The notes beneath the pieces are model-generated. The model saw only the letters and a program-made list of their open reading frames with translations. It was not told the origin of the DNA and made no database searches. 64,000 nucleotides of DNA from Cladocopium goreaui (Eukaryota; Sar; Dinophyceae; Suessiales; Symbiodiniaceae), in the NCBI GenBank assembly GCA_947184155.2, contig CAMXCT020006571.1, forward strand, positions 319,501 to 383,500, in the 5' to 3' direction. Position 1 is the first letter of the stretch. Each line of letters starts with the position of its first letter. The position numbers and the translations under genes are program-made. Shown here piece after piece: positions 8,879-34,906 of this stretch.

Positions 8879-8899
8879 CTTGACCGGGGCAGTCCCATG

Positions 8900-10868: not shown

Positions 10869-11312
10869 CTTGGCGGAAACTGATGATGATGATGATTATT
10901 ATTATCATGGTGATGATAACTATTATTGTTTGGTATTTATGTAAATGTATACATATATAGATAGATTATATATATATAGTATGATTATTAGTTACTGCTG
11001 GTGTTATGTATGTCAAAGAACAATACACTTGTACAGAACTAAAAGTACATAGGAATTTGGTTATTCTATAATATTGCTGGCATGAACTTGCGGCATTCGG
11101 AGCCTCAAATCCCTGTTGCTCTTTATAGCTACTGGCTGAGGTCCCAAACCTAGCGGCCACAACTGGATCAAACACCAAAACTATGCTTTCCATAGTCTAA
11201 TAGACTATTTTCACATACCGCAAGAGTGCATTACCCCTATAAAATCAACCATGAAATATGGGAGGATATTAAAATATAACGTAATCTATGTATATATATA
11301 TATATATATATA

Positions 11313-11350
11313 TTAGCATGTCGCTCTAACACGTTTTCTTTAGACCTTAT
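11313..11350 (+). repeat. Left terminal inverted repeat
   Basis: Starts TTAGCATG after a TA run (11291-11312) and contains CACGTTTT and TCTTTAGA, each matched in order by the reverse complement of 32846-32902. The first 25 bp match at about 21 positions. Confidence 0.8.
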
Positions 11351-11986
11351 TATCCCTAAGTATCCCCTTAACTATCCACTTAACTATCCCCTTAACTATC
11401 CCATTATTATACCTAATATCCCCTTAACTATCCACTTAACTATCCCCTTAACTATCCCATTATTATACCTAATATCCCCTTAACTATCCACTTAACTATC
11501 CCCTTAACTATCCCATTATTATACCTAATATCCGCTTAACTATCCACTTAACTATCCCCTTAACTATCCCATTATTATAACCTAATATCCCCTTAACGAT
11601 CCACATTAACTATCCCTTAACTATCCCATTTTTATACCTAATTCCCCTTAACTATCCACTTAAACTATCCCCTTAACATCCCATTAGTATACGCTAATAT
11701 CCCCTTAACTATCCACTTAACTATCCCCTTAACTATCCCATTATTATACCTAATATCCGCTTAACTATCCACTTAACTATCCCCTTAACTATCCCATTAT
11801 TATACCTAATATCCGCTTAACTATCCACTTAACTATCCCCTTAACTATCCCATTATTATACCTAATATCCCCTTAACTATCCACTTAACTATCCACTTAA
11901 CTATCCCCTTAACTATCCCATTATTATACCTAATATCCGCTTAACTATCCACTTAACTATCCCCTTAACTATCCCCTTCAAAGTTT
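11351..11986 (+). repeat. Left subterminal minisatellite, 56-bp unit
   Basis: The unit is three 12-bp subunits (TATCCCCTTAAC, TATCCACTTAAC, TATCCCCTTAAC) plus a 20-bp spacer TATCCCATTATTATACCTAA. About 11 units are present with small indels. The same 12-bp subunits appear on the opposite strand in the right array. This arrangement is typical of transposase-binding subterminal repeats; the binding role is inference. Confidence 0.85.
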
Positions 11987-12531
11987 CCGTACTATCTCCA
12001 AATTGTACCTTTGATTGTCCTGTTTTGTGGTGTTAATGAACCAAACGGCCCACAAAGTATCTTCAACACGATCTGCCATTTATCCCCAAATTTGGTGAAT
12101 GTATGGTAGAGCCCAGTCTAGTTAAGTTATTTCTTGATTTGGGGGAGGCAAGCAGCCCTCACCGACCATCTCATCACCTGTGCCAAAATGATCGGTCAAT
12201 CCGACCCGTACTATGTCAAAACATAGACTATATACTCTTGTTTCATCCTTACATTAAGGCTATAGGCTACTTATAGGGGGCAGTATAGATCAAGAGCATA
12301 TAGGCTAGGCTTTGAAAGTACGGAAACTCAAGCCAAGAAGTGGCAAGCATCGCATGATCTTTCTTTCTCTTGCTCACTTGTTTGATCTGCTTTCCTTGGT
12401 CCATCGGCTATTGCCAATTGCCTGCCATTCATTCATTGCGTCTTGCAATGCTTTCACTGTCACTGAGTCGCGCCGGCCAAACCCTCATCCGGCACGCAAT
12501 GATTCACCAAAATCACCATGCAGGTACTAAG
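11987..12531. other. Spacer between left array and gene 4
   Basis: No gene seen. This is the 3' flank of gene 4. No canonical AATAAA is evident just past its stop, as is usual in dinoflagellates. Confidence 0.5.
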
Positions 12532-15500
12532 TTACTTCCCTGCCGTCAGTGAATCCACTCGGCGCTTCAAATTGTCCTCGCACTTGATGCCTTTGGAACT
12601 TAAAAGATCCAGGCACCGTTTTGCAAGTCCGGTGCGCGTTTCACCTGGTTTCAGGTCACGCGTTAAACATTGTCCCAGGGTCATACTGCCCTGGAAATAA
12701 GTAAAATTTGCCAACACAATTCTTTCACCCTTTTTGGGTGGCCCCTGGTGGGCGCTACTTGAGAAGTTATGCAAATCACTCTGCGAAGCCACAACCATGG
12801 TCATCACCGAAGCGCTCAAAACGCTGTCTTTGGGCAACATGCGAATGGCGTCCAAAGCTGTCTTGATCTCTTCAGAGAGCGCTGCACTCTTGGATCCCAG
12901 CTGCAAGAGCAACACAGTGTTGTGGTCAGCCACCAACTTGGCAATCTGATCCCTGTCAAGGTCACCCTTGAACATGTCGGGGAAAGAATGCAAAGAGATC
13001 ATCTTCTGGAAGGATGTATCCAAAGCAGCCCATGCATTACCAAGTTCATTGTTGCATTGAGACAGCAACTGAGCCACAAAGGTACTCATTCGATCCATGA
13101 GCAACTTGAAGAAAATCATTTCCTTGTCGGTTTCGGTCATTTTGCTGGTCATGCTGGCAAAGGAACTTGCAGCTGATGCAAACCTTGCAAAATTGGCACT
13201 CATGTGAGACAGAACATGCATCTTGTAGATGGTCTTGCTCTGTTGCTTCATTTTGGCTGCCTCAAAATCACGGGTTACCAACTCACTGAAAGCCTGCAGC
13301 TCCTCAGCTTCTGCTAGCTTTTCTTTGAACATGACCATGTACTTCGACAAGTTCAAGAGGACCCCAGACAAGCAAACGAAGGAGACATGAACCTTCACGC
13401 TCGTCTCGGTGCCTGACTGGAGTGTGACCACATCGCCCATGCATGAGGTGTAGGTCAAACAGAACTTGGCATAGTCCAATCCGCTTTTTCCGTCCTGCCA
13501 GACTGGGACAGTGTCGAGCCCGATCCGATCATATCATCATCATAAGTTAAGTCATAGACTCAGTAGCATAAATTTATGTATAAAAGTTAAGTTATATTAT
13601 ATTATATTATATTATATCATATTATTATATTAAATTATATTATATTATATTAAATTATATTATAATATTATATTATATTATTTTATTTTATTATATATTT
13701 ATATTATATAATTATACATTAGTTATATATATAATATATATTATTATATATATAAAATTATATAATATTAATATATTATATTATTATATATTATATCATA
13801 TATATATTATATATTATATGATATAATATTCTATTATATCAATATATATTATATTTTGTTTTATTATATTATGTTATATCATATCTTATTATATTATAAA
13901 TTGTATTATATTATTATATTAAATTATTTTATCTTAAATGACATAGCATGATACTATGACATGATATAATTTACAGTACATACTGATATACTTTATTTGT
14001 ATAAGTTTTATAAATGCTATATGATATGTTATGATTATGATTCATATGATGATATGATGTCATAGTCATAGTCATGAGTCATAAGAAACATCATCAACGG
14101 TCTGAGTCATAAGTCATAACATAGTACATCATAATAAATTTAAATGACAAATGATAAATAATTATGCAACAGATTTTGATGCAAAGAAACAACTGTCTTG
14201 TAAGCAAAAGTTGTGTATTAAGAGTCCATAGTCATAGTCATAGTCATGGTCATAGTAGTCATTGGTTCATAAGTTTCATAAGTCAATGCTAAAGTCAGGA
14301 AGATTTGTTCGCATCATCACGGGGGAAAGAGTCATGGATCAAGTCTGAATTCTTTGATTTGGTTCTGTCAAAAACAAATTCCCAGCAGCCACCAATGAAA
14401 TCAAAAGTCCAAACCTTACCCCACGATTGCACTCCTTGTCGTCCTGATCCAGAGCTCCCACGATTGCAGTTTGCAAGACTGTGTCCAAGTTGACTTCTGC
14501 ATCAAGAATCCGAACCATGAAGCCGTGGAACGTAGAGGTGGCTTGTTCCATGAAACTGGCCACTGACTTCTCAATCAATGCAGTCACCTTGGAGAGGCTC
14601 ACAGCCCATGATGGCACAACTGCTTCCACCTGCTTGATCACAATCTGGTCTTTGAGTCCTTTGAACAAAGCGGTGACCCTGTCTTCAAACAGAAGCTCTT
14701 CTGTCGCAGAGCCGGCTGAGAGGGAACACAGCTTTGCAAGTGCTCCTTGCAAAAGACGGGAAATGGAACTGACAGCACCAAGCTTGCCGGCAATGTCAGA
14801 TGCAAGCTCCTTCCCCAACATCTTGCCCAAATGTACTTTGGGAAGGCCATGGTAGGATGATAGCTCCGCAAGCATCTGAAGGCACTCCGTGGTTTTGGAA
14901 TCAGAAAGCTTTCCAGTAGCCAAATCCTCCATGAAATCATCAAACTTGGGAAACTTCTTCTCAAACCTCAAAGTTGCAGCTTCAAGAAGAGCACCATGAA
15001 GTTGAGAGATATGCTGGTCAATGGCAGCCAAGTGGGTGGACGATGCATCTTTGGCACGATCTGAGGCATTGTCCTTGAAGCTGAAGAACTTGGCAGTCAT
15101 GTCAGCAACTTTTGCTTGCAATGGCACTGAAATTTCATACTCTCCATCGCGCTCTCTCACGATCGTGTCGCGACAGAAAGGCTTCATGCCTTGGGTAAAC
15201 TCAAAGACACCTTGAATCTCGGCCTGCAACGCTTGGTCTTTCCTGCTTTGGTTGATCAAGCCGGAGATTGTCTCAACAAGGAAGACACCCGCTGGGTAGA
15301 TTGTGAGGGCAGATTGGAAAGCTGTTTTGCCCTTGACCAACTGCAACCTTGCAGCTTCTGCTGCCTCCAACTCTGTACCGACAACGTCAGTCTCTGAGCA
15401 AACAACCCGCAGGAGCGTCAAAAGCCTTGCCACATCTTCTCTCAAAGGTGACTTCTCTGGGGCAGCTGAGTGGTAGATCTTGGAAGCGACAAAGCTATCA

Positions 15501-16796
15501 CACAAAGCGAGAATCCTCTTCATGGTTGGTAGCATGGCCTCAGACTTGCCAGCAGCATCAGACCTTAGAAAATGCCAATGGAGTGCTTGGAAATTGGAAG
15601 CATTCTTGAAACCTATCCACAAGTTACAAAATATCCCAATTCATGGCTGGGATAAATTAAAACTTGCAGCTGCGTATGCTGAAGCATGTGTGTTAAGAAG
15701 TTAAAGCTCCACAGGTCACAGGGTCCACATATACTAGACTATATTATTTTATATACTGATTGATATACTGTATAGTAACATGATGACATGTACTGTATGT
15801 AGTGAGCCGTAAGAGTTATCATTTGAGCTAGTCATGAGTTCATACATTTGTACATTAAAAATCTGGCAACAAAATTTTGACAGGGCACCCAGAAGGCGTG
15901 GGGACGCGGAGAAAACACTGGTTGATCACATGGGAGATGCAGCCTCCCTGAAATTCCCTCACGACGAGTCGTAGGGCATCCTCCGACAAATCTTTCGGGA
16001 GCACACAAGTGATGCCGTCGGGGTACTTGTCCTCGCAATCAGGGTTGAGGAAATCCATGACCTCCTGAAATTTGTCGTCCTCACACATTGCCACAGCTGT
16101 CCTTTGGCAAATTGCATTGTTGACTTGAGCAGGAAGAGTCACCTTGAGATCACGTAGAGCAGTGGCCCTCAGACTCAAGGTTGAAGGCGCAGCTTCCTTG
16201 TCTTGCAACGCCTCAATGAAGTCTGAGATTGTTTGCACCAGAGTCTTGCAATCCTTGAGTTGGTGCCAGACAGTCTCTGCACGGCAACCTGGACCTTGGC
16301 ATCTGATCATGTCAACAAAGAGGGCAGTGGATTCACCCAAGCGCGTCTCCAACTTCTCAAGTAATGAAGTGACTTTGGAAAGTGAGAGCTGCATCACTCC
16401 TCCCCGAGAATCTTCAACTTGAAATTTCAACTGGTTCGCTTGGAGCACCAAACCCTCGGACTTGTCGAGCTCACGAGTCTCCGCAGCGGCATTCTTCTTG
16501 GATTGGCCACCCACCTGAAAAGCAAAGACGGTGCCTGACGCTGCATCTGATCCTCCTGCGTCAGAAGCAGCACCAGAAGGGGCAGCGGCATTGGCAACAT
16601 TGGCATTGGTGGACTTCGAATCAACTGTTGTTGCGCGGCGGGCACGAGAAGTGCCGCTAGTGCCTCCAACCTTGGCTTTCTTCTTGGCCTGTGTCTCATC
16701 ATCAGAACCACCACCACCACCACCGAGGAAACTGATGTCTCCCCCCCAAAGCATCGACATAAGCTCATCATCCTCAGACCCTGTCTTTGCTGACAT
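12532..16796 (-). CDS. Element gene 4: 1002-residue helical protein with SAP-like tail
   Basis: I do not recognise the family. Three exons, 16796-15944, 15612-14420 and 13494-12532, join through one GC-AG and one GT-AG intron and sum to exactly 1003 codons including TAA. The start is MSAKTG. The N-terminus is acidic, then Gly-rich, then basic (KKKAKVGG, a possible nuclear signal), followed by an Ala/Ser linker. From about residue 110 onward it is predominantly helical, with a Cys cluster (CQGPGCRAE). The last 50 residues (about 950-1000; GETRTGLAKRCLDLLSSKGI, then NLKRR) resemble a SAP DNA-binding fold. The start codon lies 286 bp after the stop of gene 3. The exon 1 donor could instead be a GTGCCC site about 60 bp further on, but that breaks the frame. 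A structural or DNA-binding accessory protein of the element is inference. Confidence 0.8.
13520..14280. other. AT-rich intron of gene 4
   Basis: Almost entirely TATTA/TATAT low complexity. It shows the sharp exon/intron base-composition contrast characteristic of this element. Confidence 0.7.
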
Positions 16797-17082
16797 TTTC
16801 CTCAGCAGAGAGGGTGGTCTAGCTTGTCAAACAACAAAGTCAAATGGAATAAGGAATCATACCACATATTAAATTATAGTAGTATATTATATAATATAAA
16901 CATTATATATCATCTGAATCATATCAACATCAATATCAATGATAACATTCTGATCATTATCTTGATCGTAATCATAACATGTAACATATTATGTCAAGGA
17001 TCATTAGCTCATTATATTTATATTTTACCAAACCAGTGCGGACTGTAAGTTCAGAAGATGTTTGAACCCAAAAAGGCAACAT

Positions 17083-18832
17083 TTAATCAATCACACCGGG
17101 ACAAAGATTCAAAGCAATCTCGTCGTCCTTGCTCGACGCAGTGACTCGAAGCTTTTTGGAAGCTTGCTCAAATGCATCTGCCGCGGCATCGTCATCGGAT
17201 GAGCCACCCTCGGCAACCTTGGAAATCTGCCTGGCCGTTTTCGATGAAGTCGATGAAACTTCAATGGCACCTTAGTGGATGGCAAAAAACCTCTAAAGGG
17301 TACAGGAAGGAAACTACTGAAGATGGTAAACAAACATTAACATAACATAACAATCATTTGACAAACGTTGCTAAACTGAATATGAGGAGCCTATCACCCA
17401 TTCTTCCAAGATAATTCCCTTCACAGGACGGCCCTGGTGTTGGATCGTGGAAAGCTTTTTTGGAACTTCACGATCATGTTTTTTTAAGAGAGCCACGGGC
17501 CACATGTAGCCTAAGACCTGTTTCGTGTTGAACCCGGTCGTCTGCTCTGCGACCGTGTTGGTATCACCTGTCGGGCACACTATCTGAAACTATATTTATA
17601 AGTTATATGTTGTAACATCTAATACAATCTACCGTATATCTCATGTGAACCACATATATAATATATAGTATATTTTATTGAATTATATAAATATATAATA
17701 TAATATAATATATAATTTTAATATAATGTTATATATTCTAAATATACAAATATCTATTAAAATATTTATGTATATATATTATATAATATATAATATTATT
17801 ATATTATATAAATATAATATATATATAATTTATAAATATATAATAATAAAATTGTATAATAATATTATTATATAAATATATATTATTTTATTATATAATA
17901 TATTAAATAATATTATATTATTTTTATTAAATAAAATATAAATATAATATAGTCGTCTATCATAATTTTAAATATGGGACACGCGCCTAACACCGTACTA
18001 ATTCCACATTCTTAACCCCGCACAGCGTTATACTTAACCCCGAACCAGCAGTGCATCTTTAACCATGAACAACCACGAAACTCTCAAGAGTGACTGTGGT
18101 CAAACATAGTTGCGACGTAGCGCAGACCTTGACATGGAAAATACACAAAATTACTTTACTTCGAGTTATCCCCACCATGACAAAATATACGTTTTGTTAC
18201 TGGCAAATCTTCTGGCATTCTATCTGACATATCTTCTGGCATTCTACCTGGCATATCATATCTTCTGGCATATGTTCTGGCATATCTTCTGACACTCTAT
18301 CTGGCATACCTTCTGGCATTCTATCTGACATTCTGGCATTCTAGCTGGCATATCTTCTGGCATTTATCTGGCATATCTTCTGGTATTCTATCTGGCAGAT
18401 CTTCTGGCATTCTATCTGGCATATCTTCTGCCATTCTATCTGGCATATCTTCTGGCAATTTATCTGGCATATCTTCTGGCATTCTATCTGGCATATCTTC
18501 TGGCATTCTATCTGGCAAATCTTCTGGTGTTCTATCTGGCATATCTTCTGGCACTTTATCTGGCATACCTTCTGGCATTCTATCTGGCATATCTTCTGGC
18601 ATTCTATCTGGCAGACATTCTGGCACTTTATCTGGCATATCTTCTGGCATTCTTTCTGACATTCTATCTGGCGTTCTATCTGGCATATCTTCTGGCATTC
18701 TATCTGGCCGTTGAGGGCCAGCGGTGCTCACTGAGTTCGGACGGTCCCAGGTTGAGGTCCAGCTCACGACATGTTACATTTATCATTAATTTAAGTTTTA
18801 AATATACAATATTAATTGAAATTTCTATCATA

Positions 18833-18869
<37 letters not shown>

Positions 18870-19834
18870 ATATATATTATTATTATATTATATATATAAA
18901 TATTATATATTATATATTTATATACTATATATATTATATTATTATATTATATAATATATAATTTAATTATATATTATATTATATATTAAATTATTATATT
19001 AGATAATTTATATTTATATAGTCTAGTTTATAGTATCTTTGATATTAAAATTATTTTTAAATTATTATACATTTTATTTTATATTGTTTACATGCATATT
19101 ATTTATTTATATATATTATTATATAACTTAGTTATATCTTGATGTTATATTATATAATTATAAATTTATATTTTAGAATTATCTCATATAAATTATTATA
19201 TTATATATTATATTAAATTATATCAATAAATTATTATTATTATTATATAATTTATAATTATATAATAGATATTGAAAGACTATGACTATGATAGACTATG
19301 ACTCTGGCTATTATTTTACTATTGACTGTTACGTTACGACTATTACTGTACTATTATCCTATGCCCTATACTAAGACTATGACTAGACTACCGTATACCG
19401 CTGTATACCATGTATACAGTTTATATACAGTTTATATATAATATAATATAATATAATATATACAGTTTACCCAGTCCCAATACTAACCCAGTCCCAATAG
19501 ATTAAAGCTTTCTGTTTTGTAAACACACGCCTCGATTTCGAGCACGCCTTCCCCCCTCACGGCGTGTTGCACACCACTCCTTGAATTTCTCATCATACAC
19601 CTTCTGATTCGCGGTGTCCTGCAAGTACTTTTCCAAAGCCGACGCCGTCATGTCTGCGTACTCCTCTTCATTCTTGATGAAGTTTGCACATGGACGACAA
19701 TCTCTCGCATTGGTACACCTAGGCTTCAAAGTATCGTTCTTATCCAGATTCTTCACAAGGGGATTGGTATCCACGTGGAACCGCAACTTGCAAAACTTAC
19801 AAGCGGCATCGGCGACGGCTTTGCCTTTGCCCAT
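17083..19834 (-). CDS. Element gene 3: 226-residue Cys-rich protein
   Basis: No family recognised. Exons 19834-19531, 17579-17391 and 17270-17083 total 227 codons including TAA. Both introns have G|GC donors; the frame closes only with these. The start MGKGKAVADA follows a CAG acceptor-like site that could take a trans-spliced leader. Residues 12-50 hold CKFC, a His, a further Cys and CRPC, which could bind one or two zinc ions. The middle exon carries a short module (about residues 103-165) with KKLSTIQHQGRPVKGIILEE, and the C-terminus is acidic and ends GVID. The first intron (1.95 kb) contains a minisatellite element (18148-18770). Likely a small nuclear zinc-binding protein of the element; this is inference. 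Confidence 0.75.
18148..18770. repeat. Minisatellite element inside gene 3 intron
   Basis: Begins with a head similar to CTTCGAGTGATCCCCACCAT (18155-18180 region, shared with 33500-33536 and 58648-58687). It continues as a roughly 24-bp array of TCTGGCATATCTTCTGGCAT (about 18205-18710) and ends in a GAGGTCC/GAGGGCC-type segment. The array reads as (MPDRMPED)n or (AYLLAFYL)n depending on strand; neither is a gene. Confidence 0.7.
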
Positions 19835-20350
19835 TCTGGTAAAGTGCAAGAGCTGGAAAAGAATGCAACTGGTGGCACTCACGCACTTAACGAGTTGGCA
19901 CAAAATGCTTGGGAAAAAACAACGGGTGGAATAGACATTCATTCAACTTCAGCTTCAAACATACAAATTCTTGGAATGTAGATCTGGAAAGCTGTGACTT
20001 CAAACTTTGAGCGCTGATATGTGCATAACTACCCACTGAATCCCACTGACAAACACAGTGACAACAACTGGCAGCAACGATCCATTCTGAGTCATGCAGC
20101 ATCCATTGATCCATCCGCATCGGTTACCAATGAATCATTGAATATCATCATCATTGGTCATCAAATCAAACACTTGTCTTTTTCATTGGCCAACCATTCA
20201 GTCATCAAGAAAGATAGGCAAATTGACTGCAAATAAAACTCTGTCTCAAATGAATCATCATCAGAATCATAAGTATCAATAATGTCAATAAGTTAGTATA
20301 AGCTATATGATTAACTAGTCAGTACAATATCAGTATATAAATAGTATAGA

Positions 20351-21753
20351 TTAGTAATAGTAATAGTCATCACCATCGTCGATCTCACCATCTCCCAAAA
20401 TGGCGGTTCTGAATGCATCAGTTTCATCATCACCACAGCTGTCTGCGCCGGTGTGCAAATGCTTGAGCTTTGCAACGTGGCACTGCGTAGGCACACAGGG
20501 AAGCTGCAGACCGCTTACTTCTAAATACATTGACAAACAAAATCTGTATTGAACTGTGGTTCACGTGAACTGTTCTATTTCAGCGGTCCCATATCCAAAA
20601 TACCTACCCAACTCTTATCTCAGACTTGTCTTGTCTTTGGCCTTTGAATTTTCAAATGCAAAAGATGTCTCAACGCTCACCGATTCCGTGCTCGAATCAC
20701 ACACAGCCATCACCACCACTGGAAAACAATCGGGAGGACACAAAACAACCAACGGGAGGTACTGAGACATTCATGGCATATGCAGCACACCTACATGATT
20801 AAAAAGCAGTGGGCATGCTTGGCTATGCCTTTCCCATGCTGGCTACTACTCACTCGTTGTCGGAGTCCGTGTAGCAACCGACAGGCCCCGCTGCGGCACA
20901 GGTCTTGTTCCACTTGCGCCAGTCACGTGGCTTCGATTTCAAAGTGCATGTCCATCCACGGTTTTCCAGCTCTGACTTCCAGAACCTGCAGAAAAACCCT
21001 GGGGCCATCATAAAGATATAAATAAATTTAAGGGCTATGAGCTGTAGCCTGAAGATTACATTGCAAAGCTACAGACTATAGACTATAGACTATAGGCCAC
21101 CATCATCATCACCACCACCACCATCATCATCATGATGATCATCATCATCGTCTACGTCATACGCTTACAGTAACCGAAAATAACAACAATGCAGGAAATC
21201 AAAATTCTGAAGCATGCCATTGCCCCAAAAACAAAAACACTTCGTGTTCAAGAAACACTGACCATTTGCACGGTGGTGGGGATCGGTACGACTTGTTGTG
21301 GGCCTTGACCTCATCCCAATCGGAAGAAATCTTGCACATCACGTTCTCAAAGCGTGCCTTCTTCTCCTTGTTGGACATCTTGGCCGCGGCCGGCTTCTTC
21401 AGAACCATCTGGCAGCCAGAAGGCTTCTTCATAACTACCTGTGAACCCTTGGTGCACTTGGGCGGGGTGAGCTTCAGCATGGTCTTGCGCGTGGCCTTCA
21501 TGGGTGTCACAAATGAGGACGAACTTGCACGGCCAGACTTGTGTGATTTGGGTGTCTTCGGACTCATCACTTTCATAGGCAGCACAGGAGTCTTTGGGCT
21601 CTGCACTTTCATAGGAGTCTTAGGAGTCTTTGGAGAATTCAATCCTGGAGGGCTCCCCACGAAAGCACGCCCACGACGAAGGGCTGGGGTAGGAGAAAGA
21701 ACACGAGTGGTAGCCTGTGAGACCGGTGTAGAAGGTGAAGGAGACGACGACAT
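20351..21753 (-). CDS. Element gene 2: 261-residue basic S/T-P-rich protein
   Basis: No family recognised. Exons 21753-21263, 20985-20854 and 20513-20351 sum to 262 codons including TAA. The donors TG|GTCAGT and GA|GTGAGT are canonical; the third acceptor is chosen by frame (GTAAG|CGG). The N-terminal 100 residues are rich in SPKTP and TPMK repeats, then KKPAAAK. They look like CDK-type phosphorylation sites on a histone-H1-like or minor-groove-binding tail. The C-terminal half has Trp/Cys-rich sequence (CKWFWKSELENRGWTC…DWRKWNKTC, about residues 162-198), possibly a small metal- or DNA-binding fold, then an acidic end. The gene starts 908 bp after the gene 1 stop. DNA binding is inferred from composition only. 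Confidence 0.75.
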
Positions 21754-22660
21754 GGCTCAACTACCTAAATGACACCACAAATCAAATCTGACTAGACTGA
21801 AGGCCTGTGAGCGCAAATGCTAGATCATGGGGAGCCGTTTTGGTCTCTGCAATCTGCAACCCCAAAAACCTTAAGCAAAATCATCCCTCCATATGGCAAA
21901 AACATGTCTCCAAAATGCCAAAAAAATCACCTCCGGACTTGCCGAAAATCGACCCCCAAAAGCCGAAAACTATCCCCTTAACTGGACCCTTTGGGGGTCA
22001 ATTTTGGACCAATTTTGAGGTCAATTGTTGGACCAATTTTGAGGTCAATTTTTGACCAATTTTGGACCATCTGTTCAAGGATCAATTTGGGCTAGTCCCA
22101 AAACATGAAGATCTTTGTTGACAAAATGTAAAACGAGATCAATGAAGAGCCATTCTGGCAAAGAAGATGTTGTACCCTACATTTATCATTGATCATCATA
22201 TCAAAATTTTATTATATGAATCATGAATCATAGAATCATAAATCATAAATATAACATAATATAATAATATTATATAATATAATTATATATTTGATCTAAA
22301 TCTGAACATGGTTTAGAAGTAAAAGATGTGGTCGCTAAGAGTTGGCAAGTGTCCTAATCGCACCTTATCATTTTGGCTTGTCCCATAAGTCAGTAGTTAA
22401 CTACCATCACCATAACTTTGTAACATAACTTGCCATTGGCATCATATAGGATAGCCCAAAGATCTTTCAAAGCTAAATTAGATTTGATCTAATTAGATCT
22501 GCTTTCCCACCCCTCAAAAAAAATCCTGCGGTCGTTCAACGGCTGGCAGCATGTTGCCAAAAGCAGCCCTTTCAATGAATCCGGCCTGCATGTAATGTCT
22601 TGCAACATCTTGCAACTATGCAAAATGCATCGAACACTGAACGGTTCGTTTTGAGATGTG
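21754..22660. other. Spacer between genes 1 and 2
   Basis: No gene. A short GACCAATTTTGAGGTCAATT repeat lies at 21990-22075. One stray copy of the terminal-array motif (AACTATCCCCTTAACT) lies at 21968-21983. Confidence 0.6.
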
Positions 22661-25600
22661 TCATTTTTTGACTTTCATCCCGATACTGCGTTTTAATTCG
22701 ATCGCTAAATTCAAATGGTTGTCTTTGCTATTTCTTCTACCCTCGGCCAACCAGTCAAACAAAAGGTCAGCATCGCGTGCATTTGAAATCCAGCAAACGC
22801 ATTTTGAGTGGACAGAACAACTGGCACGTAGTGACTTCTGCCCTGACTTCTGATCCACAAGAAGGGTTACAGCACCCAAACGATCCAACTTGGATTGACA
22901 TTTCAAATTGACATGGGCAATGGTTCCAGAAGCCGCTAAATGGCTTACCTCCACAACTTTCCCATCGGGGTCAGCACACAGGATCTGTACATGTGTGTTT
23001 TTGACATCTGGTTTTTGTGAGACGCCCACATTCGCAGAAGATGCAGCGCCAGTTGCAGTTGAAGCTGGGCAGTCCTTGCAGCAACAAATTGGAAGGGGGG
23101 ACAACGGGTTACACAACTTAGGCCTTCATATGATTCATAATTTCATAATCAAACAATGTACATGATCAGGAAAAGCAGGATGACTATGACTATGATTCTG
23201 ATGATTAAGTCATAGCTCATCAGTACAAGTTAGGTATATGACTATATGACGATACGATATGATTATTATAATTATAATTTATAATTATAATTTATAATTT
23301 ATAATTATGATATATCATCAATAAATCAACATAATTTATAACATTGATACCATCAAGTCATTAGTAGTAATAATTTTAATCAAACATAATGCACAGTACA
23401 TTATCAGGTAACCGGGTATATGGTATACGGTATATCGGTATATAAGTCAGTATAAATATGTAACGTATATAAATAAGTTCAGTATACAACAACTGTAGCA
23501 GGGCCAAAAGAACATATAATAATAATAAATAACTCATAACTCATAAATTACATAGATGGTGTAGCCCTTCATAATATCAGTCAACAAACCGAACCATATC
23601 ATAAATTTACCTCATCTAAGATCTACGATCCCGAACCATTGAGGCGACACGGTTTCCCCAAACGTTGAGGCGTCAGATACAAACTTGCTAGTTTGGCAGT
23701 ATTTTTCCCAAAACACATGAGTCAGTAAATTCCAAACATAAAAAAAGTTTGCCACATACTCAAAGGGGTACAACAGTTACAACACGGCATCTACTGTGCA
23801 TCCCTATTTTTTAAATGAGTTGATGGCAGCTCAATATAGCTCAACCCTGTAAAACAACAAGCCCAGAATCTAAAGCTTCTGAACAACTTGCTGATGATGC
23901 AGACGTTTCTCCACCACCACGCTGATGACCCTGGCCTCCATCATTCTCGACAATTTCAACTTCTTCAAGATCACTCTCAGACTCGTCAGAACAGATATCA
24001 GCCTGAACCCAGTCTTGCACGTCAGTAGATTTGCTAACCTCACACTGCCCACGCGCATGTCGCAGCGCGGCTATGGCTTCTGGTGTCAGAAATGCGTTCA
24101 AACAGGGATCGTCCAAAATGGGATCTCCGACTGGCTTGACATGACCCGGTGAATCATCACCATGACTGTAGCTGTTCTGGTCACGGTTCTGCTTCTCCCT
24201 GCTTTGCCCTTTTCTACGCTTGGGCTGTTGCTCACATGATGCTCCCACATCTTCCAGCAAAGCCAGCAAATCAAAAGGATCTGGCTCATTAGTCTGAGTT
24301 TCCATCCCAGTACCGGCGTCCGGTTGAACATCCTGCCGCTCAACAGCCGGTGCGCACACAGGGGTTGCAATCATACCAGTGATAGTATCATCTGTCCCAA
24401 GAAGTTTGACCCTGCGTGGAAGAACATCTTCGTAAATCATCAGATGAGCTGTCACTTGTGAGGCATCCAATCGTGGATCTACCAGCACCGGCAAGTCCAA
24501 AAGAAATGCAGCAAATTGGTCGGATGTGAACATGCGCAAACGGCCTGCAAGTTCTGGCTGACGGGGGAAATGGTCAGAGCCCTCTGGCTCAATGTAAGCC
24601 AGCGTCTGAAGGTCCAGAATCATGCCAGCACAGCTGGAATCTGAATGGTTGAAAACATCATTGTCCCAATCAACTGGTTCTAAGCATGCAAAAACCTGAA
24701 CTGGTTGATGTGTCCCTAAGCGTGCTGAACATCCAGAAATGAACGCGTACTGGCGATAAACACCGCCCTCTGTGTCCACCACTTCAAAACGACAAAGGAC
24801 ATCCTTCTCAACCATGGCTTGTACGCCACCCATCCTGACAACGATCGAAACATATTGGAAAACTTTAGATATGAATATGAAGCAGTATGTGAATGAGAAC
24901 CCAACGTCTTGGAAGGGTCAGTCTATAGCCAAAAATATAAATATATTATATTATATTATATAACTACTTAGGCCATAATATAATAGACTATAATATATAA
25001 TGACTATAATATGTTCTTAGTGATTATTTTATTAATATATTAATATAATTTCATAATATAAAAAATAATAAATCATATAATGCTGATCAATGATCAATGA
25101 TGATAATAATTAATAACAATAACAGCTAATCATAACAACTACTAATAAGAATCATGACTTACTCATAGCCATCATTTTACAATCAAATCACATTGTATCA
25201 TTTCCTGCAAGCCTGTAAGCCTTTAAGCCTGTAAACCTACAGTACATATAATTTATATCATATCATATAGCCTTTATATAAGGCCGTGATAATTGGGGTA
25301 TTCATCCCGATTCATTTGATGATTGATTCAAATAGTTCAGGTACAGTGCACCACCTCCTCCCGTTAGTAATGCCAAATTACTATCTATATAATTATAATA
25401 ATTATATTATATTTCATAGTAATTAGTAAAGTATGGGATAGTAATTTGGCATTACTGACCGTTGGCTATTCATCACCATTTTCATACACACCAATGGGCC
25501 CGTACATCATGTTGTTGATACAGAGTCAACATGTTATTTTGTATGCTTTGCCTATTTCCCCATTATAAGTTAGGTTAAAAGAAACTGAACAAAATAGAAC

Positions 25601-28600
25601 GTATGAATGTCGAGTCTCTGCTGAACAATGAAATTGAAGAGTGCCAAAGTGTTGCAGTGAAGAGCTATCCGTTTTGGTTCGCCAAAATGGCGACACTGCT
25701 CACCACAATGCCCCTCGTGCAAAACTCTTTGAGGGAAAGTGTCTGTCTGATCTTGAGGTCGGGAGATGCTCTCAGCTTGACGCTGGAATGTTTTTGTTAC
25801 AGCTTTCCCAGTCAAACCCGATGCAACTTGAGACCTCCACACCTCATCTAGAGTTGACTCACCGATGGGAAAATCATGTTCCGATATCTTTCCCGCAGTT
25901 TTGCGCACATGTTGCTCAACAATTTCACGACAGTCTGCACCAGAAGCACCAGCAGTCGACAAAAACTCGCTAAGTTCCTTCACAGGAAGGATTTGCAAAT
26001 GCACCCCGTAATTGTTCTTTGTCGCTGGGACAAGCGCAGCTGGCTGTGCAGGAACATCTTCAGAAATTGAAATTGCATTCTCACCAGCACTCTTCTTCTT
26101 CTCAAGTTTCTTCAACATGCGTTTGGAAAGTGCATCTTGTTTTGAGTCCTGCGACATCCTCTCGTACAGTGATCTTTCCTGTGGACTTAGCTGAGCCCAC
26201 GCTTGTCTCACGTCATTCCAAGTGTCTTTGCTACACGGGTTGATTTTCTCAGCTTTGGAATGCATTTCAAGGTAATGCTTGCGATACAGTTCTAGTGCAG
26301 AAAGCCCCTTTGCAGTGGTTTGCTTGCTGCTCCATGATACACCGATGCCCCTGTTCTTGTGGCCCGCAACATCTTTGGAATCCCCCGCAACATCTTCATT
26401 TCCAAATTGAAGTTTTCGTGCTTCCTGCTGGATGCGAGCTGACTCCGCGTTAATAAATTTTGCGGAGATGCTGGAGAAGCTGTTACCTTGCAGAGCTCTG
26501 TTTTGCGAATGGAGCGCCTCAACATCTGCGATTGAGAGTTGTAGAGTCGATGCTGCAAAGAATAGCAACTTCTGGCAGTTGCCGAACACCAAGTCATCAG
26601 GCGATAAACCCATCTCCTTCAGGTCCCGACAGAGCCCGGGCGGATAGCAACATGTGTGTTTCTGTTGCCAGAATCCAAGAAATGTTTGCAATGTGTCCTG
26701 GTGTGCCTCGCGATCGCCACAAACTGTCACAGAGAATTGATCATCATTGAGGTACACAAAATGGCGCCGGTACACCCATGCGGCACCAAGCAGTAAAATC
26801 CGACGAATGAGACGGCACTTGTTCAAATTCACTTTGCAGAAATCACCATAGCAACCATATTCAGTACGTGGCCAAACCAAATTGAGACGTCCACCCCCAC
26901 TTGTAGACATGATCAAAGCACTGTAGTGTTGAAGTGCCTGAACCACAATGCTTGTCCTTGGATCCAAAAGTCTGAATAATGCTGGCCGATGGCCTGCCTT
27001 TAAACTGACAGCGAGGCATGATAACCAATGCCAAATCAGAAATCGCGTGGCTTCCATCGCCACAGATAGGAGCTGCACCATCCATTGTGAATCCTTGTTG
27101 GATAAAAACTCTTCAGAGCTCTTCAATCTTCTTCCGTTCACCGCGTGAAACGCCAGTGACTCTACAAGACGCGGGTCAGTTGTTCGATCTGCCTCGTTGA
27201 ATTCTTTGAATGCCATGTGCTTGTAGGCTTCACTGAAGACTCGCGAGAGCCAATTGTGGACAAGGCTTCCACTCAAGCAAAAATCCTCGGCTTTCAAAAT
27301 TTTGGCTGCCAAAAACTGGAAATAGGGAGGATATCAGGAAAGCATCTGAAGATATGTGCCAATGGGTAATGATTTATAATTTATAATATAATTTATAATA
27401 TAATATAATAATATAATAATATATAATATTATATTATTGTATTTTGTTATCATATTATACTATATTACGTTATATTACATTATGGTATTATATTTGGTAT
27501 TACATTAAATTATATCATTATATAATTATTATATAATATATGATATTTTGTTATATAAATATTATATATGATTATTTATATATGATGATTATATATTTTA
27601 CTTAACAATTGAAAATATATTATATATATAAATAATAATTTATGATATGATATTATTACAAATGATAATTACATGCTATGATAGTATCTTGTATATCTAA
27701 TATATAATACACATTATAATATATATTATTATATTATATATAAATAAATATACAGTATTATATAATATAATAATATAATGTATTATATATTATTTATATA
27801 TATATATTATATATATATAGTATGATTATATTTATTTATTTATATATATTTATAAATTATATATAATATATATATATATATTATATTATATTAAATATTA
27901 AATTATATCTATATTTATATATATAATATATAATAATTCATATTATATTATGATATTATTTATTATTCCAATTATGTTACATTATACGATGTTTTATAGT
28001 ATTACATCACACTATGTTTCTTTCGAATATTGTATTATATTATTGTTTATTATCACATCATATCATACTATTTTATTTTATATTTTTTAAATGTTAATGT
28101 TACTTTACTATTATTATATATAGATATTGTATTTGATTATTTCAAAGAACTATTAAACCATAATGTAATAGTTCTTTAAAATAATAAAATACAATATCAA
28201 AAAAATATCAAATGTAGATATTATAGATATAAATAAATATTTGTCATTTTTCAATATTGCAATATAAAAATCATATTATATAATATGTTATTTATTTATT
28301 ATTTTAGTATTCTATATTTATATAATGATTACTTTTAATAATATGTTATAGAAGTATACAGTATGTTCAGAGTATGTTTATATCAATATCATATCATGTT
28401 CATGTTGTATTCATAAATCATATATCATGTATCATATACCATTATATATAATATAAATTGTATCATATATTTAATTTATATATATATATATTATTTATAT
28501 ATCATATTATGCTCATTTGTCATATAATCATCGTATACATAATCATACAGTTGCTTTGAACATTTAATCATACAATGGAGTTTTTATATTGTAATAATCT

Positions 28601-30714
28601 GTTTTATATTGTATTATATTATCTTATCATATGGTTTTGGTATTTTATGTCATTCAAAATGATATTTATTATTTGTTTATGTAATGTTCAATTTTATAGT
28701 AAATAAATAGTATAAAACTAATATAATAAATGTGCGTGTTGTATTAAATGTCTCATATATTATATAATAGAATAGAATAGAATAATATCATATAATAGAA
28801 TTGAATATAATATGAATAATATGAATTATAATAATAGTTATAATATAATAATAATATATTATATTTATATTATTATATAATATAGTATCAATATCTATTT
28901 AAGCGTGTATCTGATTCTATCGTGAATGATTTAAAGTAATATAATATAGTATAGGGTAAGGGTCTGGTGTGTACAAGATATGATATGATATGGGTCCGGT
29001 AGTGTGTTTACAAATTATGATACTATATGATTTCCCAATGTTTATGAAGTCATATACACCGTACTGCCACTCACAGACCACACCAAATAAAATCAGAAAC
29101 TGTGAGGGAACCTTACTGTCAGTCGTGTCAAGCATCCAGGCATGGATAAAGTGTCGTCCACTTGTTCGGCGCTGGCACAGCCGGCATTGAAGATAGAAAC
29201 AGGTTCACTAGGGCGTCAGCGCATTTGCGCACAGCGTCAGGTCGGTCTTGGCAGTGGCGCTGGCCAGCAGGAAATGTTGCATGTGTGCAACGGTGGCAAG
29301 GCGTCTCAAGACTTGTGTTGCCGTTCCAAAATTGCAAGAAAGTTGCGAGTGCTCTTTCAAAAGCTGCTGACGTCTGCCCATCCTCCGATTCAATCTTGCG
29401 GTTGGTGCGTAAAAAGTCAACCAGCTCCAAAACAGAAGGATGATGCGATCCCTGTTCAACAAAATCTGGACCACCGTCCATGAGATCTTGCTCAAACACC
29501 AGATGTTCATTGACCCAATTGTAAAGAGACTGCTTTAGTCTCAGCCAATTTCCCAAGTTCCTGATGAACACCGAGAATCCATAAAGCCTTGATAAAATGT
29601 TGTGGCCAGCGGCTGACAGAAGTGCCACATTTATGAGCTGCGTTTGATGGTTCTGGCACTTCCCGTGAAGAATTGACATTCTCAAACTTTGCTCCAAGGT
29701 CTTGTTTTTTTGTATGAGATGTGCCACCAACCTCTCATTCGCATAGGCACCATCTGATTCAAGAATCTGGAGTTTGTGAAAAGTCAAACCAGCCAAGGTA
29801 TCCAGCAAGGACTGAACGCTCTTGTACATTGGATGATACCGCAGAGAATAGTACATGTGGTGTGCCCCACCCGCTAACAGAATCGCAGGCGGCATAACCA
29901 ATCTCAGAATCAAAGTGCTGCCGTCTTCCCAACTCAAGACAATGCGCTGTCGAGCGACCATAGTTTCCCATGAAGATGCCACACGTTTGGTGTCTTGATC
30001 CGCATTGACTGATGTCCAAACTGCGGTCTCATCCCACTTAAGGTGCCTGATGAGGAACGTTGGCGGCTTCGATTGCGCGAGCAAAATCAGTTTGCCAATC
30101 AAAGAGCACTGCTGCGCCAAATATATCGAACCCACAGACATCCCCATGAATCGAGCAGTGGATCTTGACACATCCAAGGACAAAGATATGTGGGTGTCTC
30201 TTCTAAAGCGCCCGTATGATGCCTCCAAGAATTCTGCCCAGGGAATCACTTTTTTGAAGCGATTGCCTTTCCGAGATCTTGCTGAAAGTTTGATAACCAC
30301 GCCAGATGAAGTCTTCTCAGCACGCACTGCAATGATCTTGCCATTCTTGCGAAACGTGGCATCGTCCAATAGCTCCGCGACACCTTGACGGAAGTCAGCT
30401 GCTCGACGTAATGTCTTGCAGTGCCGCATGTGCAGCGCCAGAATGTTTTGTTCCTTCTCGTCCCCATGTCGTCCGTTGCCCACTTTTCCCCTCATTGAGG
30501 GAAGAGTAACATTCACTTTCACATTGGAAACATTTTCTGAAGATGCAGCAGACGTAGATGTAGATGGTGGCTGTAAACCCTCCGAGCCTCCCTCTACACG
30601 GTCGACAGAACCTTCAGCCCCTTCTGATGAATCAAGCAAGGCGAGCAAATCAACTGAATGTTCAGCCTCCTGTGGTGAATCAAGGAGTGCGATCAAATCA
30701 AGTTCATCATCCAT
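22661..30714 (-). CDS. Element gene 1: 1517-residue DDE-like transposase with HMG-box-like segment
   Basis: Exons 30714-29137, 27315-25697, 24834-23892 and 23074-22661 total 1518 codons including TGA. Donors are CTG|GATGCT, CA|GTGTCG and TCA|GCAAGT. The start is ATG at 30714 (MDDELDLIALLDS); an upstream TTG is not a eukaryotic start. Seen: two LLALLD-type acidic repeats (residues 1-30); KWDET (Asp 228); LESDGAYAN (Asp 321); CQNH (Cys 353, His 356); VEALH (about 791) as a candidate catalytic Glu; and a stretch near 863-920 with W…LSPQERSLYERM typical of HMG boxes. Known: Asp…Asp-C-x2-H…Glu is the RNase-H-fold plan of several eukaryotic DDE transposase superfamilies. The third exon again has DLLALLED. 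Inference: the element's transposase. The second donor is the least certain; a strong GTGAGT at about 25852 would change the frame. Confidence 0.75.
25366..25456. repeat. 91-bp MITE-like inverted repeat in gene 1 intron
   Basis: The 20-bp arms (AGTAATGCCAAATTACTATC and its exact reverse complement) enclose a 51-bp AT-rich core. It sits in the second intron of gene 1. It could be a nested MITE or an RNA hairpin; no clear target duplication is visible. Confidence 0.7.
27316..29136. other. 1.8-kb AT-rich intron of gene 1
   Basis: Nearly pure A/T. It contains an imperfect hairpin with arms of about 33 bp at 28123-28198 (GATATTGTATTTGATTATTT paired with its near complement). Confidence 0.7.
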
Positions 30715-31899
30715 GGCCAAGCTTGAGTGTCATCAGATCTCCTAACATCTTTCGAGCAAAAAATGATACATCATCAATTCAAGCAATCCTGTTGGTGACC
30801 CGCAGGACATCAGACCTGTTGATCTAAACTTTATGTCATCATCATTTGAATCATATGAAATGACGTGATATGTTTCGGGTTCAAAAAAGATTGATAGATG
30901 CGATAAACAATGGTTCGCTCCGAGGACATGACTTATTACTATTATTTATTATGATTCATATGATATATGATTCATATGACTCATATGACTCATGATTTAT
31001 CATCGGTCCAAAAAATGAACCGTCATGGCCATGATGATGCTGATGTTTCACAACCCCAAAAAATAGTGATTCTCGAATCAACCCAAATCACACCAAATAA
31101 ACAGAAACGCCAGACAATTGAATTGACCACAGAGTGACTTGAGAATGGGTACAATTCATGGCGTTGTTGTTTAATTGGGCGTCCTGCCTCCCCTCCGGAA
31201 TTCATTCGGAAACCGCAAAGCTTTCAGGTAAAATATGGTGATCATCCCCGAACTCCGAACCATATGGTACGGTATATTTTTATATGATGATATGGTAAAG
31301 TTTGGATGCTGCACTTTGGATGTAAAGGCCCACAAAAAACAAATAACTCAAATAACACTTGACCATTACAAATCTTGCTGGTAATTAATACGTTGTATCT
31401 TGGCCAACTGTAATCTTAATTATGTCATTATGGATTATGAGTCTATGAGTGTTCTGAATCATGTTCTGAATCAATTTCCCCAAACCTAAGGCACCAATCT
31501 CCCCAAAATAATATCGTATTACCGTTTTAATAACAATAGTCAGAGTCTTAGTGTATTGTGACAGTTATTATTAGTTATAGTCATAGTTATCTATATCATG
31601 CCATGTCGAATCAATGATTTGGGTAAATGCCCTAAAGATGCAAATACCAGGTGTCAATGTCAAATAGTATGCATCAATTTCCCAAACGTAAGTTGTTAAT
31701 TTCCCACATGTTTAGTCGACAATATCCCCAATTGAGAGGTCAATCTCCCCAAAGTTAAGTGGACAACTTCCCCAAAGATACCTGACAATTACTCCAAAAA
31801 CGGCACTTTTTACTGGAACAACATACTCAAAGATAAAATTTTTAAGATGATACTTAAGGGTACAGTATAGCCGGTATAGCTGACTCCAAAGATGACACT
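30715..31899. other. 5' region of gene 1
   Basis: No gene seen. No TATA-box/initiator pair can be argued, as is usual for dinoflagellates. From about 31680 degenerate forms of the right-array motif appear. Confidence 0.5.
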
Positions 31900-32845
31900 T
31901 TTGAGTGGATAGTTGAGGGTTTAATTACTCCAAAGATTGCATTTTGAGGTGGATAGTTGAGTATATTATTATTATTTTGTTAGTTGAGTGGATAGTTACT
32001 CCACAGACAGCATTTTTAAAGGGATACTTAAGGGGATAGTTGCTCCGAATATTGCATTTTTAAGGGGATAGTTAAGTGGATAGTTACTCCAAAAATAGAA
32101 TTTTTAAGGGGATAGTTAAGTGGATACTTACTCCAAAAATAAAATTTTTAAGGGAATAGTTAAGTGGATAGTTTGCATTTTTAAGGGGATACTTAAGTGG
32201 ATATTTACTCCAAAGATAGCATTTTTTAAGGGGATAGTTAAGTGGATAGTTACTTCAAAAATAGAATTTTTAAGGGGATAGTTAAGTGGATAGTTTGCCT
32301 TTTTAAGGGGATACTTAAGTGGATATTTACTCCAAAGACAGCATTTTTAAGGGGATAGTTAAGTGGATAGTTACTTCAAAAATAGAATTTTTAAGGGGAT
32401 AGTTAAGTGGATAGTTTGCCTTTGTAAGGGGATAGTTAAGTGGATAGTTACTTCAAAAATAGAATTTTTAAGGGGATAGTTAAGTGGATAGTTTGCCTTT
32501 TTAAGGGGATACTTAAGTGGATATTTACTCCAAAGACAGCATTTTTAAGGGGATAGTTAAGTGGATAGTTACTTCAAAAATAGAATTTTTAAGGGGATAG
32601 TTAAGTGGATAGTTTGCCTTTGTAAGGGGATAGTTAAGTGGATAGTTACTTCAAAAATAGAATTTTTAAGGGGATAGTTAAGTGGATAGTTTGCCTTTTT
32701 AAGGGGATACTTAAGTGGATATTTACTCCAAAGACAGCATTTTTAAGGGGATAGTTAAGTGGATAGTTACTTCAAAAATAGAATTTTTAAGGGGATAGTT
32801 AAGTGGATAGTTACTCCAAAGTAAGAGAATAGTTAAGGGGATAGT
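31900..32845 (-). repeat. Right subterminal minisatellite, inverted relative to the left array
   Basis: Regular from about 32020. The repeating core is AAGGGGATAGTTAAGTGGAT, whose reverse complement contains the left-array subunits TATCCACTTAAC and TATCCCCTTAA. Spacers (TACTTCAAAAATAGAATTTT and TTTGCCTTTTT) differ from the left spacer. The shared 12-bp subunit with unrelated spacers suggests that the subunit, not the whole unit, is what is maintained. Confidence 0.85.
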
Positions 32846-32902
32846 TGCTAACATGAAGCCTCTAAAGAGACCCCCTCAAAACGTGATACAGCACCATGCT
32901 AA
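32846..32902 (-). repeat. Right terminal inverted repeat
   Basis: The reverse complement starts TTAGCATG, then CACGTTTT, a 9-bp insertion, TCTTTAGA, and leads into CTATCCCCTTAACTAT, matching the left end. A TA run follows at 32902-32915. Confidence 0.8.
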
Positions 32903-33363
32903 TATATATATATAATATATTCTGCACATATATTATATTTAACCCAATAAAGGTCTCGAGAAATGATGATTCAGCAACCCCAAGCCGCTCAATACCAAGT
33001 GGCTGCCAGGGTCATGTCTTTCAAACAAGCTAAAGTCATCTGCCACTGCTGTCCCTTCTCACAGGCGCCTGGAGCTGCACCATACCCGAGAAAGATGAAG
33101 TGACCCAAAATAAGTGGTCTAACTCCAACAATTTCACACATTGAAAATACATAAAGTATAATAATACTAAATAAAATATGACTGATTTCTGAGATTCAAT
33201 CTTGCGAATGATCAGTGTTAACCTACACATTGATTTTGGTACCTCAGCTCTTTAGCTGACTTAGCCATTAATGTTCATCATGATTGGCTCTCTGACCGCT
33301 CCCTTACCAATGGATACTAAACCAATTTTGATAATTTTGTGCAAGTGTTATGTCAGCCAGACC

Positions 33364-34906
33364 ATAGCTTATCCTAACTTTTTTAAAACTTGAAAAAAAC
33401 GCGAAAAAAAGCTAAAAAAGGAAAAACCAAAAAGCAAATCAGCAAAATCCAAAAAACGCAAAAGCAAAATAATAGGGGAAAAAAGGAAAAAGGAAAAAAA
33501 AAAAATACTTCACTGCGAATGATCCCCACCATGGCATATATAGCTACATACTCCACAGCTCTGGAAAGAAATATATAAATACGCAACCTGGCCGAAGGAC
33601 ACCAAAGAGCAGCATCTTCTGACATTCTATCTGGCATATCTTCTGACATTCTTTCTGACATTCTTTCTGGCACTCTATCTGGCATATATTCTGATATTAT
33701 TTCTGGCATATCTTGTGGCATATCTTATGACATTCTTTCTGGCATATCTTATGACATTCTTTCTGGCATATCTTCTGACATTCTTTCTGACATTCTATCT
33801 GGCATATCTTCTGACATTTTTTCTGGCATTCTATCTGGCATATCTTCTGACATTTTTTCTGGCATTCTATCTGGCATATTCTGACATTCTATCTGACATA
33901 TCTTCTGACATTCTCTCTGGCATATCTTCTGACATTCTGTCTGGCATATCTTCTGACATTCTTTCTCACATTCTTTCTGGCATTCTATCTGGCATATCTT
34001 CTGACATTTTATCTGACATCTTTTCTCACATTCTTCCCGTTGAGGTCCGGCAGTGCCCACTGCGATCTGGAAGTCGCGGTTGAGGTCCGGCAGTGCCCAC
34101 TGCGATCTGGAAGTCGCGGTTGAGGTCCGGCAGTGCCCACTGCGATCTGGAAGTCGCGGTTGAGGTCCGGCAGTGCCCACTGCGACCTGGAAGTCACGGT
34201 TGAGGTCCGGCAGTGCCCACTGGGATCTGGAGCTCGTGGTGGAGGTCCGGCAGTGCCCACTGGATCTGGAGCTCGCGGTGGAGGTCCGGCTGTGCCCACT
34301 GGGATCTGGACTGCGAGGAGGAGGCGGCGGGTGAGGAGGCGGAGGAGGAGGCGGAGGCGGAGGAGGAGAACAGCTCTGATAAAAGCTAACAACCCTCACC
34401 TGGCAGGTGGGGAAAAAAAGCAAAACAAAAAGCAAAAAAAGGAAGGAAAAACAAAAAGGAAAAAATGCAAAAAAAGTAAAAAACAAAAAGGAAGGAACGA
34501 CAAAAAGGAAGGAACGACAAAAAGGAAGAAAACAAAAGGAAAAAAACAAAACACAACACATACAATCAATTCTCAACAATCATGAATTGCATCAAATTCC
34601 ACCCATACTTATGTTCTCCTGAATTGCTTATTCGAATGAATTTTGAATTTGAAAAACTCATAGAGAGGTTGTGTTTCTAGTGTTTTTACATTGTTTTTCC
34701 TTTTGTTCTTTCTTTTTTTTTCTTTTTTGTTGCTTTTGTTTCTTTCCACCATGCTTTTCCCTTTTTTCCCTTTTTGACTTTCCATTTTTTCCCATTTATT
34801 TTGCTTCCTGTGTTTTTTCAGTTTTGAAGTTTTGCTTTTTTGATTTTCCATGTGTTTCTTTTTTTTGCTTTTTTTTTCAAGTTTAAAAATCATTAGAATA
34901 AGCTAT
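33364..34906. mobile_element. 1.54-kb inverted-repeat element carrying minisatellites
   Basis: The left edge (ATAGCTTATCCTAAC, then TTTTTTAAAACTTGAAAAAA) is matched by the reverse complement of the right edge (ATAGCTTATTCTAAT, then TTTTTAAACTTGAAAAAAAA). Both edges continue into A-rich or T-rich arms of about 110 bp. Inside are the CCCCACCAT head (about 33520), the TCTGGCATATCTTCTGACAT array (33610-34030), a 40-bp unit GTTGAGGTCCGGCAGTGCCC array (34038-34300), a GGAGGCGG run (34312-34370) and a hairpin tail CACCTGGCAGGTG (34395-34407). No coding capacity. Probably non-autonomous; mobility is inference. Confidence 0.6.

Follow-up and report, generated by a model that had tools for sequence, protein, structure and literature searches.

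The 64,000 nucleotides analysed here (the window) correspond to C5930:319501-383500 in the assembly of the host, the dinoflagellate Cladocopium goreaui (1,165,616,438 bases; 6,202 contigs), in which the dinoflagellate spliced leader has 81+91 exact matches compared with none for a reversed control. Positions 11313..32902 of the window very probably constitute a cut-and-paste DNA transposon of full length that appears to be autonomous, encodes a DDE transposase and four conserved accessory genes, generates an 8-bp target duplication and is hAT-like by fold. The element probably represents a hAT-like transposon lineage at the superfamily level that is equipped with these four genes: according to the predicted fold it would be closest to hAT, while sequence, termini and gene set would separate it from hAT at that level.

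Terminal inverted repeats and subterminal arrays

The left terminal inverted repeat (TTAGCATGTCGCTCTAACACGTTTT; 11313..11337, + strand) and the right one (TTAGCATGGTGCTGTATCACGTTTT as read on the - strand; 32878..32902) are identical at 21 of 25 positions; elsewhere in the window, no place comes closer than nine mismatches. Inward of the repeats lie a left subterminal array (11347..11978, + strand; motif TTAACTATCCAC / TTAACTATCCCC) and a right subterminal array with the same motif inverted (31981..32846, - strand). The two arrays have 25 11-mers in common when compared in inverted orientation, against none when compared directly; the flanks share one. TTAACTATCC is present 31 times on the + and 14 times on the - strand of the window, always within one of the two end regions. 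Across the 1.17-Gb host assembly, the 25-bp end pattern was found at 160+164 places with up to three mismatches, compared with 6+8 for the reversed control (324 versus 14); the match between the window's ends is beyond chance. An earlier note, made from the sequence alone, had proposed inverted ends at 11313 and 32902 and inverted minisatellites on a common motif, both of which are borne out by these data. Its further claim of a distinctive base composition is weak: the GC content of the AT-rich introns falls to 17%, but many gene-bearing kilobases range from 42 to 48%, as in much of the flanks.

The element is embedded in a TA run, and the TATATATA found on both sides (left copy 11305..11312, within the TA run and of ambiguous register; right copy 32903..32910) is compatible with an 8-bp target duplication, the length of which was set from other copies.

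Copies, target site and subfamilies

Two further full-length elements are flanked by exact 8-bp duplications at both sides: C5834:306292-328036 (21.7 kb; ATTATATG) and C1184:31464-51594 (20.1 kb; GGTAAAAT). The right end of a third relative, in C3586, was not found up to position 36,500. Common array 11-mers are exclusively inverted in the window (25) and in C5834 (14); in C1184 there are 51 inverted and 22 direct ones, the latter because its array is near-palindromic. The left end of the C1184 element contains an internal inverted end copy (C1184:31464-32051, L031 and L040; span 588 bp) that is also present in C5045 (L041) and partly in C3818 (L042).

Of the end copies inspected, many lie in short non-autonomous elements. 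Counted as distinct were 17 short end pairs: the L006 group (five contigs) and L032/L033 were each taken as one insertion, extra rows joining the window's right end or L029 to starts with six mismatches were excluded, and L027 was scored with a degraded partner end and not with its better one. Exact 8-bp duplications flank six of the 17 (L010 AGTATATG, L017 GATATAGA, L024 TGTATAAC, L025 ACTATAGA, L034 GGTATATC, L037 TGTATATA), and two more show a duplication with one mismatch (L021, L029). The remaining nine have none: in five of them the partner end deviates at 4-6 positions (L018, L023, L026, L027, L030), L031 is internal to C1184, and the L006 group, L022 and L032 have good ends.

The preferred target site is NNTATANN: a TATA centre was present in 16 of 26 distinct end-adjacent octamers (27 rows minus the C1184 duplicate; one element counted at both ends, most read at one end only) compared with 1.3% per position in flanking DNA. 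Exact 8-bp duplications at copies outside TA runs rule out a TA or TTAA duplication and replace the TA-type target site that had been assumed for the element. Mobility is supported by further copies in this genome, which agree in ends and gene order, lie in different flanks and are bounded by exact target duplications.

Five array motifs were sought in the 900 bases inside the end at each of 33 loci (L006-L038, some of which represent one insertion in duplicated contigs): the window's TTAACTATCC was present at 9 loci, TAATTATTG at 16, TTAACTTTCTC at 4 and TATACTCCTTAA at 1, with none of the five at 3; the motifs found inside the ends were absent from the 900 bases outside them. As the inner motifs vary among loci with a common end pattern, the terminal repeat is constant and the subterminal array differs by subfamily. 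The TAATTATTG elements are the commonest group among these loci, none of them being of full length with a TAATTATTG array.

Gene content and order

Five genes are encoded, all on the - strand. In the order from the right end they are the transposase, g2, g3, g4 and g5, and this order is common to the window, C5834 and C3586 according to tblastn searches with the window proteins. The transposase comprises exon 1 (29137..30714, with a putative splice site) and exon 2 (25570..27285, splice site placed by alignment). It is followed by the single-exon g2 (23841..24833, 330 amino acids), the small g3 (22661..23064, 5' end uncertain) and g4 (20850..21753), which has two exons (21753-~21262 and ~20987-20850) and an S/T-P-K-rich N-terminal part. 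The long g5 (12532..19834) consists of at least six pieces with approximate exon edges (~19834-19530, which is Cys-rich, 17583-17400, 17257-17104, 16799-15858, 15612-14421 and 13494-12532). It was counted as one gene because the Cys-rich tail continues in frame into the long part in C3586 and C5834, by which a total of six genes is ruled out. Of the four same-strand spliced genes proposed in the earlier note, including three accessory ones, the common strand and the accessory genes stand, the latter being conserved in other copies; comparison with the two relatives raises the count to five genes with four accessory ones.

Identities to the window (tblastn) in C5834 and C3586, respectively, amount to 44% and 43% for transposase exon 1, 32% and 30% for g2, 45% and 40% for g3, and 28% and 36% for g4; the g5 pieces found in the two range from 29 to 55%, with the Cys-rich first part matched by eye. 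Exon 2 of the C5834 transposase is split over two overlapping frames. The C3586 element contains two divergent g4-like frames (L073 3942-4391 and 5974-6501; 63% identical over 108 codons), where C5834 shows one.

None of the accessory genes gave a Pfam match above the cutoff; the sub-threshold matches of all Pfam scans, those of the transposase homologues included (RamS, Phage_holin_3_3, Helicase_C_4, DUF7648, TAF4, Cep57_MT_bd, sCache_2, Carot_N, Phage_CI_repr, AvrPiz-t, Remorin_N, DUF1571 and CDT1_C), were taken as chance. A g5 exon has three protein-database relatives (100%, 47% and 43%); for the second of these and for P0038, a relative of transposase exon 2, the longest contig listed measures 145,647 bases in both cases, which suggests that the two may lie on one contig of another assembly.

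Catalytic residues and predicted fold of the transposase

The DDE-transposase hallmarks recognized in the earlier note were substantiated by an alignment of 49 rows: none of the three acidic residues varies in any row that spans it (33/33, 33/33 and 23/23), and the second D is followed by a CxxH motif (C 32/33, H 34/34). In the window, the candidate catalytic residues are D at 30033-30031 (KWDE) and D at 29754-29752 (ESD) in exon 1, with the CxxH at 29658-29647, and E at 26520-26518 in exon 2.

The predicted fold of a transposase relative shows an RNase H-like DDE core that is broken by a helical insertion domain, with Hermes as the best match and a weaker match to the P element. Foldseek against the PDB returned nothing at E <= 0.001 for this fold (best: Mos1, 0.022), so that the Hermes result depends on the second-look aligner. 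A C-terminal HMG-box-like region is also predicted (~26307-26110 in the window); a PDB sequence search with exon 2 gave one weak match to an HMG protein (E 0.43), in agreement with the later fold result. The two matches of exon 1 in the same kind of search were judged chance, the 49-row alignment found no match, and a single-sequence fold of exon 1 was uninformative (predicted local distance difference test, pLDDT, 36.7).

At sequence level, no hAT Pfam model matched at E <= 1 in the window open reading frames, 10 members of A1 or 16 of the 51 transposase homologues (P0013 included), nor at E <= 10 in 3 members of A2. The hAT-model scans gave no Pfam match to a BED zinc finger either, which a divergent BED could escape. 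Matches to the Kyakuja-Dileera-Zisupton (KDZ) group were likewise absent from the Pfam scans of the window frames, A1, A2 and the 16 homologues. No transposase relative was confirmed in viral or prokaryote contigs, the 34 and 95 pattern matches there having failed tblastn.

Co-occurrence of genes and ends, and selection

A search of the assembly with transposase exon 1 gave 33 matches. Twelve of these loci are nearly complete, all with open frames: that of the window and eleven others at 45-60% identity to it. C1184, C5045 and C3818 seem to represent a single element present in several contigs, and the same applies to C461 and C2281, so that the 12 loci would correspond to about nine independent lineages. 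Downstream on the same strand, g2 is present at 12 of 12 (with one internal stop at C6134) and also occurs at C5273, a contig not among the exon 1 matches. The g5 exon was found at 9 of 12; at the other three the position predicted for it falls off the contig, ahead of its start (C5045, C180) or past its end (C2281, 106,415 bases). It was moreover detected at C1072, for which no transposase is listed, and at the more distant transposase loci C2181, C5649 and C236.

With the first 100 of the 324 end places entered into the comparison, a mismatch-free end in the right orientation is located 1.3-2.2 kb upstream of the transposase at no fewer than five of the 12 loci, window included, and degraded ends were found upstream at three more (C461 and C2281 with three mismatches each, C180 with five). 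No right-orientation end was present within the 1.5 kb upstream examined at C3818, C6040, C6134 and C5951. The genes and ends, which according to the earlier note might prove never to occur together, therefore co-occur at at least 5/12 loci, with degraded ends at three further ones.

The selection test left out the three C5834 rows of transposase exon 1 as well as g4 and g5 of the window. Between C5834 and C3586, nonsynonymous (dN) and synonymous (dS) divergence were 0.29 and 2.77 for transposase exon 2, 0.37 and 1.56 for g2, 0.53 and 2.01 for g4, and 0.43 and 2.61 for the long part of g5; g3 and the other g5 pieces gave dN of 0.34-0.50 with saturated dS. For transposase exon 1 of the window, dN was 0.54 against C3586 and 0.36 against C1184, again with saturated dS. 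The genes are under purifying selection, all ratios being far below neutrality and rough owing to dS saturation.

Other features of the window

The minisatellites at 18200-18708 (in a g5 intron) and 33614-34036 (just beyond the right end) have similar 24-bp units, and two arrays about 25 kb apart (34039-34310 and 58982-59185) have 40-bp units with the common start GAGGTCCGGCAG. A short open frame at 8795-9169 (+ strand) resembles a reverse-transcriptase thumb weakly (E 0.00084, under the cutoff) and is probably a retroelement fragment; a 536-amino-acid open frame at 59726-61336 (- strand) had no Pfam match at E <= 0.1. Neither Rfam nor a tRNA scan gave a match in the window.

Relationship to known transposons and alternative explanations

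With the hAT elements (Hermes, Ac, Tol2, Kat1) the transposon shares the RNase H core with helical insertion, the CxxH after the second D and the 8-bp duplication; it differs in the missing hAT-model sequence match, the termini, the C-terminal HMG box, the four accessory genes and the size of 20-22 kb. The left ends of the window, C5834, C3586 and C1184 and the right end of the window all start with TTAGCATG, unlike the hAT terminal consensus. That the element simply belongs to hAT as a divergent member and carries passenger genes, for which the likenesses and Hermes as best fold match would speak, is possible but rather unlikely: besides termini and Pfam results, the conservation of gene order across deep divergence and the selection on these genes make mere passengers improbable. 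The P0013 cluster bears the UniRef name 'DUF659 domain-containin...', DUF659 being a hAT-linked domain, and would favor hAT membership; hmmscan of P0013 did not reproduce DUF659.

Subterminal repeats and CxxH have roles in the hAT enzyme Kat1, and such repeats are reported to be important for hAT enzymes (PMC4763223). According to PMC12730594, Zisupton and a Dileera family produce 8-bp duplications, and KDZ elements can bear an extra gene. The present element resembles the KDZ group in both the duplication and the extra gene content, and differs in having neither a KDZ Pfam match nor a TET/JBP match (Repbase being outside the comparison). Dada elements encode a DDE enzyme with DxxH/CxxH, have long duplications and, in the view of the authors who described them, are related to hAT, P, MuDR and Kolobok transposons (PMC3706591). 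The CxxH-type motif in a DDE enzyme is common to both; Dada, however, duplicates 6-7 bp on insertion in small RNA genes and lacks terminal inverted repeats. The P element has other ends and another gene set.

The CACTA (En/Spm) elements possess subterminal arrays of ~12-bp units, more than one protein, a 3-bp duplication and CACTA ends. Arrays of such units and several proteins are also found here, in contrast with an 8-bp duplication and TTAGCATG ends. A two-component element like maize En/Spm, in which an array binder would act beside a separate cutter, is a serious option that falls somewhat short of an even chance: arrays of ~12-bp units that differ by subfamily next to a constant terminal repeat are in its favor, while the case is one of analogy, the duplication is 8 bp and not 3 bp, and no CACTA-family Pfam match was obtained. 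This proposal concerns the mode of work and would be compatible with a hAT-like transposon as the best explanation. The piggyBac and Tc1-mariner elements duplicate TTAA or TA, unlike the 8 bp favoring NNTATANN observed here.

Polintons (Mavericks) carry genes for DNA polymerase B, a packaging ATPase and capsid proteins. At Pfam sensitivity, none of these three was matched in the nine window open reading frames scanned, in accordance with the earlier exclusion of a Polinton. A virus or virus-like element of Polinton or Teratorn type that has become integrated might account for size and several genes, and is very improbable given these Pfam results in the pieces scanned, the failure to confirm a transposase relative in viral contigs and the absence of a viral structure at E <= 0.001 among the folded proteins (g2-g5 not included). 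A host gene cluster between two unrelated short elements with common ends, conceivable in view of the many examined end copies in short elements and hence common end pairs, is refuted in practice: the exact 8-bp duplications 20-22 kb apart around C5834 and C1184 would have to be coincidence, the ends upstream of transposase loci have a fixed orientation, and the gene order recurs on many contigs.

Proposed mechanism

In a hAT-like transposon of this type, the transposase with its RNase H core, helical insertion and CxxH would synapse the terminal repeats, its C-terminal HMG box could bend the ends, and cleavage might proceed in the hAT manner with integration at an 8-bp stagger. Binding sites that mark each subfamily's own ends for its proteins are the probable function of the subterminal arrays; the Cys-rich start of g5 is the first candidate for an array binder. 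The products of g2, g3 and g4 are probably helpers or regulators, either of the complex itself or of the way in which it gains access to chromatin.

A more far-reaching interpretation, to which we assign even chances, is that of a new superfamily of eukaryotic DNA transposons, seen so far only in dinoflagellates: a five-protein machine in which a Hermes-like, HMG-box-bearing DDE enzyme would work with four proteins outside any known family, each of them needed and for that reason kept in fixed order across very deep divergence. The proteins would perhaps be required to reach the DNA in the permanently condensed dinoflagellate chromosome, and the constant terminal repeat together with fast-changing arrays could serve as an identity tag that separates subfamilies.

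Significance

No multi-gene element of such kind appeared in the titles and abstract openings of the dinoflagellate and transposon literature covered (subscription papers and Repbase lying outside this scope), and the passages covered of the review PMC11453091 contain none either; the element is to be called undescribed within these limits. The five genes described here stay together under selection over a divergence at which synonymous sites are mostly saturated. Most cut-and-paste transposons are known to require one or two proteins. Dinoflagellates have very large genomes. With its open reading frames, clear-cut ends, a target site that it prefers and its short derivatives, the element makes transposition in dinoflagellates testable. 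The element furthermore adds a branch of CxxH transposases that is placed by fold comparison and missed by Pfam sequence models.
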